From: an uncultured bacterium
Lineage (GTDB): Bacteria; CALINM01
Assembly (NCBI GenBank): GCA_938045315.1
Contig: CALINM010000001.1
Location: forward strand, 1-11,993
Direction of reading: 5' to 3'
DNA: 11,993 bases
Every line of letters starts with the position of its first letter. Within the stretch, counting starts at the first letter, position 1. Of this stretch, positions 89-11,993 are shown in pieces. The position numbers were made by a program, and so were the translations under genes. The notes beneath the pieces are model-generated. The model worked only from the letters and a program-made list of their open reading frames with translations, did no database searches and had not been told where the DNA came from.

Positions 89-1021
89 ATGATAAAAAGA
101 AAAAAGATAACGATAGTGGGAGCAGGAAATGTAGGAGCGACTGCTGCTCATTGGGCTGCTTCTAAAGAATTAGGTGATATAGTTTTAGTTGATATTGTTG
201 AAGGAGTTCCTCAAGGTAAAGGGCTCGATTTGCTGGAGGCAATGCCGGTTGCTGGTTCAGATGTAAATATTATTGGGACTAACGGTTATGAAGAAACAAG
301 AGATTCTGATGTAGTTATTATAACTGCCGGTATTCCAAGAAAACCAGGTATGAGTAGAGATGACCTAATAACCACAAATACTAATATTGTAAAAGCTGTA
401 ACTGAACAGGTTTGCAAATATTCACCAAATGCTTTTATAATTGTAGTTTCTAATCCTCTTGATGCGATGACTTATGTGGCATATAAGATAAGTGGTTTTC
501 CAAGAAATAGAGTGATGGGAATGGCTGGCGTCCTTGATACAGCAAGGTTTAGAACCTTCCTTGCTCAGGAACTAAATGTTTCTGTGGAAGATATTGTTGC
601 TTTTGTTCTGGGTGGGCATGGGGATACAATGGTACCCCTTGTTAGATATTGCTCTGTAGGTGGAATACCTGTCACTAAATTGATTTCTAAGGAGAGATTA
701 GACGAGATTGTAAAAAGAACGAGGGATGGTGGTATAGAAATCGTTAATTATTTGAAAACTGGTAGTGCTTACTATGCACCGTCTATATCAGCTGTCGAGA
801 TGGCTGAAGCCATTTTGAAGGATAAAAAAAGAATTATGCCAGTAGCAGCATATCTTGAAGGAGAATATGGTCATAGAAATGTTGTTTGTGGTGTCCCAGT
901 AAAGTTAGGTGGAAATGGTATAGAGTATATTTATGAGCTTGAATTCACTGATGAAGAAAAAGAGATGTTTGAAAAATCTGTAAAGTCTGTTCAAGAATTA
1001 ATATCAAAAACTAACCTTTAA
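89..1021 (+). CDS. mdh: Malate dehydrogenase, NAD-dependent (LDH-like type)
   Basis: Interconverts malate and oxaloacetate with NAD(H) in the cytoplasm, as part of the oxidative or reductive citric acid cycle. The 310-residue length is normal for the LDH-like MDH family. The Rossmann motif [10 protein letters not shown] starts at residue 11, and Asp35 at the end of beta-2 favours NAD over NADP. The substrate loop IPRKPGMSR has Arg84 and Arg90; an arginine rather than glutamine in this loop marks malate rather than lactate specificity. The catalytic pair is Asp150 (in LDTARFR, with substrate-binding Arg153) and His177 (in GGHGDT). The start is fixed by AAGGAG at 75-80. It is the first gene after the promoter, and fumarase follows after 5 nt. 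The family assignment is secure; the direction of use in the cell cannot be read from the sequence. Confidence 0.97.
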
Positions 1022-1026
1022 ACATT

Positions 1027-9285: not shown

Positions 9286-10115
9286 AAAGAATTATTTATT
9301 ATCCAGGATGTACACTCCATTCTACTGCCTATGAATATGGTAATTCAACAGAGGCGGTGTTAAAACATTTAGGTATAGAGTTTGAAGAAATACCTGATTG
9401 GAACTGCTGTGGTGCTGCATCAGCTAAAAGTTTAAACCATAGACTATCCATACTCCTACCAGCAAGAAACTTAAGAAATGCTGCAGATCTTGCTGGTGAT
9501 GTTTATGTTCCCTGTGCTGGTTGTTATAACAACCTTATGAAGGCTAAGAAGGCTATGGAGAATGAAGAAGGTAGGGAAGAGATAGAAAAAAAATTAGGTA
9601 AGTTTCACAGAATACCTGAAGTTTATCCTTTAATGAATCTTTTCATTGATGATAAGGTTTTGAAAAAACTGTCTGAAAACAAATTAAACACAGATGTGAA
9701 AATTGCATGTTATTATGGATGTGCATTTTTAAGGCCTGAAGAAATACTGCAAAATGAAAATCCCGAATTACCAAAATCAATTGATACAATCTTAAATACC
9801 TTAGGTGTACATACAGTAGAATGGCCACTTAAAAGTTTTTGTTGTGGTGGTGATTTAAGTCTTGCAAGTAGTGATATTGTCTCTGTGCTTGTAGAAAAGA
9901 TATTGATTTATGCTATTGAGGCAGGGGCAAGTGCCATTGTAACTGCCTGTCCTTTATGTCAAGCAAATTTAGAGATGCGGCAGAAAACCAAGATGCCCGT
10001 ATTTTATTTTACTGAAATAATTGGAATAGCTCTTGGCATTGATGAAAATAAATGGTGGAAAAAGCACCTGGTTGATCCTGGTAATGTTGTTTCTAAATTG
10101 AAAGGGGGAAGGTAA
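9282..10115 (+). CDS. hdrB: Heterodisulfide reductase subunit B-like, two CCG domains (second copy)
   Basis: Second HdrB with both non-cubane cluster motifs intact: Cys10, Cys42-43, Cys78, Cys81 and Cys147, Cys187-188, Cys223, Cys226, in the spacing C-x31-CC-x34-C-x2-C and C-x39-CC-x34-C-x2-C. The CYYGC lead-in to the second motif is the canonical form. The 277-residue length is slightly shorter than copy one, mainly because the linker between the two CCG domains is shorter. There are no membrane segments or signal peptide. The start overlaps hdrC2 (ATGA) and the stop overlaps the next gene (TAATG), so hdrC2, hdrB2 and the tandem flavoprotein are probably made in fixed proportion. The substrate is unknown. 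Divergence from hdrB1 around the motifs suggests the two pairs act on different partners rather than being interchangeable. Confidence 0.92.
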   Translation: MKRIIYYPGCTLHSTAYEYGNSTEAVLKHLGIEFEEIPDWNCCGAASAKSLNHRLSILLPARNLRNAADLAGDVYVPCAGCYNNLMKAKKAMENEEGREEIEKKLGKFHRIPEVYPLMNLFIDDKVLKKLSENKLNTDVKIACYYGCAFLRPEEILQNENPELPKSIDTILNTLGVHTVEWPLKSFCCGGDLSLASSDIVSVLVEKILIYAIEAGASAIVTACPLCQANLEMRQKTKMPVFYFTEIIGIALGIDENKWWKKHLVDPGNVVSKLKGGR

Positions 10116-11993
10116 TGATTAAACCAGTAGTAGTAGTTGGTTCTGGTTTTTCTGGTCTTTCAAGTGCATTTCATATTGCTGAGGCTGGTTTGCCCGTTAT
10201 AATCTTAGAAAAGAAAGATAAAATTGGTGGATACTTCCCTCGTTTAAAAAGGCAGTTTCCCACAAATACCTGTGGTGTGTGTTTTATGCATCCCCACTAT
10301 CCTGCTTATTGCCCTTACATAGAAGCGGAAAGACATGAAAATATAAATATTTTTACAAATGTTAGCATCGAAAATATTATAAATAAAGATGAAAGTGTAG
10401 TGGTTGAATATACTTCCCATGGTAAAGCACATAATATTGAGGCTCAGGCTGTAATAATTGCAACTGGCTATGAACCTTTTGATATATCTAACAAACCTGA
10501 ATTAGGAGGTGGTTTATATTCGAATGTTTTTCCGGCTCTAATTTTTGAAGATTATTTATACGATAACATAACAGAAAATAAATCTTTACCTTATAAGAAA
10601 ATTGCTTATATACAATGTGTGGGGTCAAGAGATTTAAAAATAAAGCAACCCTACTGTTCATCTTTCTGTTGTATGTATGCTTTAAAACAGGCAATGTTTA
10701 TAAAAGAATTTAACCCTGAAGTTGAAATAACGATTTTTTATATGGATATAAGAGCTTTTGGTAAAGAATATGAAAGATATTATATGGATGCTAAAAGAAA
10801 GGGTATAAATTTTGTTAGAAGTGCTGTGGCATCTGTTAAAAAAAGACCCTCTACAGGTAAGCTTGAAATTTTGTACACAAAAGATGGAGATGCAAGGGAA
10901 GAAAGTTTTGATGCAGTGGTACTCTCACAAGGTGCTACCATAGGAAGAGATATAGTTGAACTGTTGAAAAAATTGGATATTCAGATAGATTTTTATGAGT
11001 CAGTTCCTTTTAAAGATAGAGAAATTCGAAAAAATATTTATATAACAGGTTCTATTTTTGATCCCATGGATATACCTGATGCTGTAATTGATGGAATTTC
11101 TGTGGCAGCAAGAATAATATCTAAAAATATTATTACTCCAAAGCTACACAATGTATTAAAAGTAAAAAAACAAAAGATCAGCAAAATAGGTGTATTTTTA
11201 TTCCAGTGTGATGATAGTGTTGATGAAATTGTAAGGGCTATTTTCCCAGAAACAATAAAAGTTAAAGATGAAGAGGAACTAAGTTTTGCAATTTCTCAAA
11301 ATAATATAGAAGGTGCAGTTGTTATTTCGAATGATATTAGATTAACAGAGGCTAAAGTGGAAAATAAAAACTACTGTGGACTGCATTTAGATTCTTTAAT
11401 TTTTATTCCCGCTTATAATAATGCTCTTCAAAAAGAAATAGAGGCATCTATTTTAAGATTAAAACAGGTGAAAAGAAGTAGTTATATGCCAAAAAACTTA
11501 AATGGTAAAGTTTGTGTTATTGGTGGTGGACTTGCAGGACTTGTAGTATCTAACTTTCTGGCGAAGATAGGCTTTAATGTGGTTATTGTTGAAAAAGATC
11601 AAATACTTGGAGGTAGATTGCGTGAAATTCCATCAAGGACTGATCTAATTAAACGCTATATAAATGATGCTGAAAATAATCCAGGTATCGAGATATTTCT
11701 GAATACGGAGGTTAAAAGTGTATCAGGAAGATTTGGTGATTTTGTGTTGCAACTTGAATCTAAAGAGGAAACAAGAAAAATAAAAGTTGATGCTATCGTG
11801 ATAACAACAGGTGGTAAACCAAGAAAAAATATTTTAAGTTATGAAGATGGGAAGAGGGTTTTTACAAATTTTGATTTTGAGAAAAGGGGTGATGAAATTT
11901 TAAAAAGCAATAAAGTTGTATTTATTCAGTGTGCTGGTTCAAGGACGGAGGATAACCCGGTATGTTATAAAGTATGTTGTAAAAAAGCTGTTA
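10115..11993 (+). CDS. Tandem HdrA-related iron-sulfur flavoprotein (partial, runs off window end)
   Basis: The frame stays open for 626 codons to the window end. Two flavin modules follow each other. Module 1 starts at once with the FAD motif GSGFSG (residues 9-14), has TCGVC (Cys53, Cys56) where HdrA1 has DCAQC, and Cys168, Cys181 and Cys185-186 matching Cys389-407 of HdrA1. It lacks the HdrA N-terminal domain and both ferredoxin domains. Residues about 355-460 resemble an HdrA N-terminal domain (IGVFLFQCDD against IGLFICHCGS) with most cysteines lost. Module 2 starts at GGGLAG (470-475) and keeps Cys606, Cys617 and Cys621-622, but has no CxxC after GGR. The start is ATG with AGGGGG 6 nt upstream, overlapping hdrB2 by one base. 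Tandem or split HdrA-like flavoproteins such as QmoA/QmoB are known relatives. I infer a two-flavin partner of HdrC2/HdrB2. The C-terminus is not visible and may carry ferredoxin or MvhD-like domains. Confidence 0.88.
   Translation, partial: MIKPVVVVGSGFSGLSSAFHIAEAGLPVIILEKKDKIGGYFPRLKRQFPTNTCGVCFMHPHYPAYCPYIEAERHENINIFTNVSIENIINKDESVVVEYTSHGKAHNIEAQAVIIATGYEPFDISNKPELGGGLYSNVFPALIFEDYLYDNITENKSLPYKKIAYIQCVGSRDLKIKQPYCSSFCCMYALKQAMFIKEFNPEVEITIFYMDIRAFGKEYERYYMDAKRKGINFVRSAVASVKKRPSTGKLEILYTKDGDAREESFDAVVLSQGATIGRDIVELLKKLDIQIDFYESVPFKDREIRKNIYITGSIFDPMDIPDAVIDGISVAARIISKNIITPKLHNVLKVKKQKISKIGVFLFQCDDSVDEIVRAIFPETIKVKDEEELSFAISQNNIEGAVVISNDIRLTEAKVENKNYCGLHLDSLIFIPAYNNALQKEIEASILRLKQVKRSSYMPKNLNGKVCVIGGGLAGLVVSNFLAKIGFNVVIVEKDQILGGRLREIPSRTDLIKRYINDAENNPGIEIFLNTEVKSVSGRFGDFVLQLESKEETRKIKVDAIVITTGGKPRKNILSYEDGKRVFTNFDFEKRGDEILKSNKVVFIQCAGSRTEDNPVCYKVCCKKAV

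Follow-up and report, generated by a model that had tools for sequence, protein, structure and literature searches.

The stretch of DNA analysed here (the window) is an entire contig, C1, of 11993 bp from an uncultured bacterium (GTDB lineage CALINM01), and its twelve genes join malate dehydrogenase, class I fumarase and a haem-type succinate dehydrogenase (SDH) to two sets of heterodisulfide reductase-type (Hdr) genes. In all likelihood, the window holds the first three quarters of an operon of 16 genes, mdh-fumAB-sdhCAB-hdrC1B1A1-hdrC2B2A2-mvhD-frhB/fdhB-like-frdB2-frdA2, which encodes two fumarate/succinate enzymes, the membrane enzyme SdhCAB and, beyond the window, FrdA2B2. Gene neighbourhoods tie Hdr to the fumarate/succinate step, most likely through FrdA2B2 and not through SdhCAB. 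We give a probability of about 0.6 to the reading that FrdA2B2 reduces fumarate in the cytosol with electrons delivered by Hdr, probably through bifurcation, which would yield succinate and reduced ferredoxin, with SdhCAB working separately.

Gene order in the window and its continuation

The twelve genes all lie on the + strand and were assigned by profile; they and a promoter-like site are as follows.

31 to 60, +: candidate sigma-70-type promoter (TTGACT-18-TATTAT, TG before the -10 element), by consensus scan
89 to 1021, +: mdh, malate dehydrogenase (TIGR01763, 487 bits, cut-off 352)
1027 to 1872, +: fumA, class I fumarase alpha subunit (NF004885, 420 bits, cut-off 276)
1872 to 2423, +: fumB, class I fumarase beta subunit (NF005310, 292 bits, cut-off 238)
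2420 to 2944, +: sdhC, di-haem b558-type membrane anchor (TIGR02046, 35.7 bits, below the cut-off of 96; four His, hydrophobic segments)
2954 to 4699, +: sdhA, Bacillus subtilis-type flavoprotein with the His for covalent flavin adenine dinucleotide (FAD) (NF006392, 1038 bits, cut-off 855; RSHSVCAQGG)
4699 to 5439, +: sdhB, iron-sulfur subunit (NF006391, 380 bits, cut-off 244; cluster motifs)
5458 to 5871, +: hdrC1 (ATG start, TTG at 5446 also possible; TIGR03290, 77.8 bits, below the cut-off of 160; two CxxCxxCxxxC motifs)
5920 to 6804, +: hdrB1, of the FrdA2-linked HdrB clade (two complete CCG non-cubane cluster motifs, tree)
6817 to 8766, +: hdrA1, FAD/FeS subunit of the electron-bifurcation type, 649 aa, without fused MvhD (5odc_A match, HA4 motif)
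8776 to 9285, +: hdrC2 (profile and motifs)
9282 to 10115, +: hdrB2, of an HdrB clade other than that of hdrB1 (two complete CCG motifs, tree)
10115 to 11993, +: hdrA2, a double HdrA in tandem that the contig end truncates (its counterpart in G001 has 860 aa)

The preliminary description, made from the sequence of the window, had read these co-directional genes as one apparent transcript with gaps of at most 48 nucleotides (nt) and no terminator between genes, and profiles, spacing and a terminator scan confirmed it. Five nucleotides separate mdh from fumA, fumA and fumB overlap by 1 nt and fumB and sdhC by 4 nt; sdhC ends 9 nt before sdhA, sdhA overlaps sdhB by 1 nt, and 18 nt lie between sdhB and the ATG of hdrC1 at 5458. 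The largest gap, 48 nt, is that between hdrC1 and hdrB1, followed by 12 nt between hdrB1 and hdrA1 and 9 nt between hdrA1 and hdrC2, while hdrC2 and hdrB2 overlap by 4 nt and hdrB2 and hdrA2 by 1 nt. All seven terminator-like sites (shuffled mean 6.7) are intragenic, with none between genes. The candidate promoter, with its extended -10 element, is the best-placed site of the consensus scan and lies upstream of mdh; promoter-like matches in the window are in total not above those of shuffles, and this site is supporting evidence only. Neither Rfam families nor tRNA genes were matched in the window.

The order of the twelve genes is not a matter of chance, because a congeneric genome (G001) has the identical set in the same order, at 67-94% identity, and a genome of another genus of the same family (G002) has mdh through hdrA1 in order up to a contig end. 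To the left of mdh the genes differ between the two genera, so that mdh would be the start of the unit.

The 3' end of the window falls inside hdrA2, hence the truncation of this gene. Past this point, G001 has the remainder of the double HdrA, then MvhD (FlpD family), an iron-sulfur protein of the FrhB/FdhB-like type, frdB2 (an iron-sulfur FrdB-like protein) and frdA2 (a TfrA-like flavoprotein). In the window's own genome (G000), contig C7 carries the C-terminus of frhB followed by frdB2 and frdA2, at 92-94% identity and with flanking genes as in G001, and in G002 the frhB-frdB2-frdA2 end is likewise found on a separate contig, with the same break. The 16-gene operon with its two fumarate/succinate enzymes is therefore drawn from the continuation in G001, the content of C7 and the shared break in G002. 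Another contig, C122, was rejected as the continuation of hdrA2 on account of its identity of only ~32%, and C7 was accepted instead. An aspartase/class II fumarase-type gene, recognised by eye and without a profile, converges on the operon end in both congeneric genomes (L100:457-1833 and L015:3505-4875); it is perhaps a further C4-dicarboxylate enzyme.

The probable partner of Hdr across genomes

HdrB1 was searched in a sample of 386 genomes, with about one to a few genomes from each family, and the neighbourhoods of ~40 of the best matches were read; Hdr genes were detected by tblastn with few queries, by which divergent subunits can be missed, and several neighbourhoods end at contig ends. 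Near HdrB1-type genes the order hdrC-hdrB-hdrA-mvhD-frdB2-frdA2 recurred, often together with fumAB. In the same genomes FrdA2 forms a distinct clade whose core members score at least 760 bits; a few intermediates reach 462-734 bits, and nothing else exceeds 348 bits. Among the 29 genomes outside the window's family with a core FrdA2, Hdr or MvhD genes lie in the retrieved neighbourhood in 24, and hdrA, hdrB and hdrC occur together in 17; fumAB is nearby in eight of the 24. More broadly, fumAB and/or mdh stand near the same Hdr type in ~10 unrelated genomes. At three loci (L053, G172:C15; L060, G104:C47; L061, G149:C257) fumAB and/or mdh lie directly 5' of hdrC-hdrB of the FrdA2-linked type, and the junctions are much like that of the window, without sdhCAB.

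In each of the family's three genomes, SdhCAB of the window type is near Hdr/FrdA2 genes, and the sdhB-hdrC1 adjacency is kept. In 31 other genomes with a window-type SdhB, none was found within 10 kb of the listed HdrB/FrdA2 matches (the HdrB position of G304 being unlisted), and window-type SdhCAB was absent from every Hdr/FrdA2 neighbourhood retrieved outside the family. For SdhCAB, hdr genes beyond the family thus routinely lie away from sdh, which the preliminary description had itself listed among the observations that would tell against the linkage.

Phylogenies agree with the gene neighbourhoods. In the HdrB tree (n=42), HdrB1 falls in a clade (support 100/100) that holds all 18 FrdA2-linked HdrB, its remaining members coming mostly from genomes with FrdA2 elsewhere, and HdrB2 falls in the other clade (100/100). 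HdrA1 groups in a clade of mostly FrdA2-linked HdrA (Shimodaira-Hasegawa-like approximate likelihood ratio test, SH-aLRT, 99), in a tree made by a quick method and less secure, where linkage to FrdA2 is also seen in another, smaller HdrA clade. Enlarged HdrA, MvhD and FrhB-like subunits beside FrdB2A2 also occur in G237 and G060 and partly in G104 and G176, so the double Hdr set is not peculiar to the window's lineage. The clusters of G237 (L046) and G060 (L054/L102) contain a shortened HdrA of 447 aa alongside one of 649-662 aa, and their counterparts of HdrA2 reach 998 and 1477 aa, an unusual expansion of HdrA modules.

Judged from these gene neighbourhoods, pairing of Hdr with FrdA2 is the general rule, and the insertion of sdhCAB is a feature of the window's family. 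Of the earlier proposal that Hdr acts at the malate/fumarate/succinate step, the step itself is supported by the recurrent linkage to fumAB and mdh and by the bifurcation motifs of HdrA1; SdhCAB as the partner is not, since the partner conserved across families is the soluble FrdA2B2 encoded beyond the window.

Two enzymes and the proposed electron path

SdhA and SdhB score above the curated cut-offs of the B. subtilis-type subfamily, the RSHSV motif of SdhA contains the His for covalent FAD, and SdhB has its cluster motifs. The four His of SdhC (28, 54, 97 and 126) lie in or next to hydrophobic segments and correspond to the four places of the di-haem anchor of B. subtilis; comparison of SdhC with solved structures gave no usable match. 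In these features SdhCAB resembles an ordinary di-haem enzyme of the membrane that is linked to menaquinone and binds FAD covalently, and the haem-type assignment made earlier is borne out by the motifs.

FrdA2 is of another kind. It has Asn134 where quinone-linked enzymes have the covalent-flavin His, and this Asn is invariant in an alignment of 17 FrdA2, most of them from unrelated families. His327, Glu344, Arg347, His441 and Arg475, which from knowledge of the SdhA/FrdA family we take to be the active site, are invariant in the same alignment. FrdA2 is extended by ~90 residues at its N-terminus and has no counterpart of the C-terminal domain of SdhA; its closest named family is TfrA, at 356 bits against a cut-off of 718. 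FrdB2 (256 aa) is without the C-terminal CCG domain of TfrB and scores below the TfrB cut-off. The best explanation of these features is that FrdA2B2 is a cytosolic, soluble-type fumarate reductase with non-covalent FAD.

Among the Hdr subunits, HdrA1 matches the bifurcating HdrA 5odc_A over its full length (E 2.6e-203), and its FAD domain and its HA4-type motif Cx12Cx3CCx4K, with the Lys after the cysteines, are conserved, at the level of motifs, as in bifurcating HdrA. Both HdrB1 and HdrB2 have two complete CCG non-cubane motifs, and the FrhB-like protein has as its best match the FdhB of HdrABC-formate dehydrogenase complexes. Further HdrA genes are found in G000 (L086, G000:C65:1089-2345, - strand; L087, ~10853-11264 of G000:C54). 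One of these matches is broken by a single in-frame TGA, and next to the other HdrA an MvhD-like match is discontinuous. A frameshift could account for this, or else selenocysteine, as known from Desulfobacterium autotrophicum.

We propose that a hydride donor (NADH, F420H2-like, formate or H2) would enter through the FdhB/FrhB-like subunit, MvhD and HdrA2, and that the electron pairs would be split at the HdrA flavins. In the uphill branch, low-potential electrons would pass to ferredoxin; in the downhill branch, high-potential electrons would pass through HdrC1/HdrB1 to FrdB2/FrdA2, where fumarate would be reduced. Complex formation, bifurcation, the donor and the direction are all predicted here from sequence. 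Textbook potentials give for 2 NADH + fumarate + 2 Fd(ox) -> succinate + 2 Fd(red) an estimate of ~-30 to -50 kJ/mol under standard conditions. Reduced ferredoxin would supply 2-oxoacid:ferredoxin oxidoreductases, for which each of the three genomes of the family has two to four clear matches (POR_N). In the same genomes (G000, G001 and G002, 84-92% complete) no citrate synthase/ATP-citrate lyase of the PF00285 type was matched, a Re-type citrate synthase not having been searched for. This combination fits, without proving it, a reductive branch from oxaloacetate to 2-oxoglutarate that would need reduced ferredoxin.

Several observations count against the proposal. About 1.8 kb between C1 and C7, which would hold the 3' end of hdrA2, mvhD and the 5' part of the frhB-like gene, is unassembled in the window's genome, and mvhD and the C1/C7 junction are missing from the assembly. 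Five of the 29 core-FrdA2 genomes (G037, G106, G123, G316 and G149) are without convincing Hdr neighbours, G316 and G149 having only a weak or fragmentary match. The subunits score below the cut-offs of the archaeal CoB-CoM HdrABC profiles (HdrA1 769 against 1100, HdrB1 166 against 345 and HdrC1 78 against 160 bits). No NADH-binding module was recognised among the operon genes. Finally, complete CCG motifs in both HdrBs are not obviously needed by a pure relay to FrdB, and may possibly indicate a thiol/disulfide role.

Such a role is the core of an alternative that we consider unlikely, an archaeal Tfr-like scheme in which HdrB1/HdrB2 would act on a small thiol/disulfide or a DsrC-like donor to FrdA2B2, without direct bifurcation to ferredoxin. 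Besides the CCG motifs, the position of TfrA as nearest named family of FrdA2 is in its favour, and homologues have been called putative thiol:fumarate reductase (PMC6315080). However, FrdB2 lacks the CCG domain of TfrB, the TfrA and TfrB scores are below their cut-offs, and HdrA1 and MvhD, which a simple thiol donor would make superfluous, go with FrdA2 across families.

It is rather unlikely that the operon reflects co-regulation only, the SDH and Hdr-Frd parts sharing a promoter for C4 metabolism and Hdr being a general redox module for several enzymes. The five FrdA2 genomes without convincing Hdr neighbours and the further HdrA genes in the genome would fit this, but particular clades of HdrB and HdrA are paired with FrdA2 across families.

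A more speculative possibility, which we hold to be quite doubtful, adds to the proposed Hdr-FrdA2B2 system a succinate/fumarate redox shuttle: after bifurcating fumarate reduction, SdhCAB would pass the electrons of succinate on to menaquinone. The net effect, if true, would be FixABCX-like, with electrons from a hydride donor reaching both ferredoxin and menaquinone, but by way of a diffusible C4 pair, and it would account for the presence of the two enzymes in a single operon in this family.

Direct exchange of electrons between HdrC1B1A1 and SdhCAB, with Hdr driving or draining the membrane SDH in an SdhE-like way, is very unlikely. For it speak the sdhB-hdrC1 adjacency kept in the three family genomes and a distant similarity of HdrB1 to SdhE of 8-methylmenaquinol:fumarate reductase (NF042965; HdrB1 177 and HdrB2 142 bits, both below the cut-off of 500). 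Yet a complete di-haem anchor, SdhC, is present, SdhB-Hdr linkage was not seen outside this family among the sampled genomes, in contrast to the widespread pairing of Hdr with FrdA2, and HdrB1 and HdrA1 group with FrdA2-linked sequences. Equally improbable is the oxidative direction, in which succinate electrons would reach NAD(P)+ or another low-potential acceptor with the help of ferredoxin (confurcation) and SdhCAB would be the quinone-linked alternative: bifurcating complexes can be reversible, as are mdh and fumarase, and the missing citrate synthase/ATP-citrate lyase match is compatible with flux in either direction, but the invariant Asn replaces the covalent-FAD His, whose loss in E. 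coli FrdA mutants is associated with loss of succinate oxidation.

Known systems and significance

Several characterised or proposed systems resemble parts of the operon. The TfrAB of methanogens, whose TfrA is the nearest named family of FrdA2, is likewise of a soluble, quinone-independent type; it differs in the CCG domain that TfrB itself carries, whereas here HdrC, HdrB and HdrA are separate genes. HdrABC-MvhAGD/FdhAB of methanogens and HdrA2B2C2 of Methanosarcina share with the operon the HA4-motif HdrA, the two-CCG HdrB, MvhD and an FdhB/FrhB-like input subunit; their acceptor is CoM-S-S-CoB, and the one proposed here is fumarate through FrdB2A2. The succinate:menaquinone oxidoreductase of the B. 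subtilis type has the same SdhCAB order, SdhA and SdhB profiles and four haem His, but sharing an operon with mdh, fumAB and Hdr genes was seen only in the window's family.

The preliminary description had named soluble fumarate reductases of the Hydrogenobacter type, with Hdr-like subunits, as a partial precedent. In a 2008 study of Hydrogenobacter, the genes of the soluble fumarate reductase were reportedly scattered in the genome. The NADH-dependent fumarate reductase of Hydrogenobacter thermophilus and FrdABCDE of Aquifex have soluble FrdA and FrdB of similar size and catalyse the same step; the precedent was not confirmed, as FrdC, FrdD and FrdE of Aquifex aeolicus are listed as aq_116, nox and dmsB2, not HdrABC (PMC10052474).

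Closer are the reductive tricarboxylic acid (rTCA) clusters of tubeworm symbionts and Thioflavicoccus mobilis, with flxABCD-hdrABC, korABCD and interspersed tfrAB, for which direct or bifurcation-linked electron delivery to TfrAB was suggested (PMC6315080); rTCA cluster operon expression is treated in PMC11636981. Genes of a TfrAB-type soluble fumarate reductase are mixed with hdrABC there as in the G001 operon and at the C7 end. The operon differs from those clusters in its second Hdr set with a double HdrA, in MvhD and the FdhB/FrhB-like subunit, and in containing all of sdhCAB; no FlxA-type NAD(P)H-binding module was found among its genes, and no ATP-citrate lyase in the three genomes. Hdr-linked TfrAB clusters had already been proposed in 2019; new is an operon that combines a double Hdr set, FdhB/FrhB-like and MvhD subunits, FrdA2B2 and an entire SDH of the quinone-linked type. 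As an experimental precedent, MetVF-MvhD-HdrABC of Moorella thermoacetica (PMC5861303, PMC7325909) is the best comparable analogue, being a bacterial Hdr/MvhD module on a dedicated reductase, which in that case is methylene-tetrahydrofolate reductase.

With a covalent-flavin quinone enzyme beside a non-covalent-flavin soluble enzyme in one operon, the division of labour at the fumarate/succinate step is directly testable in this family. In bacteria that fix CO2 by reductive TCA steps, the supply of low-potential ferredoxin has been described as unresolved (PMC10052474). The conserved hdrCBA-mvhD-frdBA unit, found in some two dozen unrelated genomes of the sample, offers a concrete candidate: its fumarate reductase could cover the cost of reducing ferredoxin.

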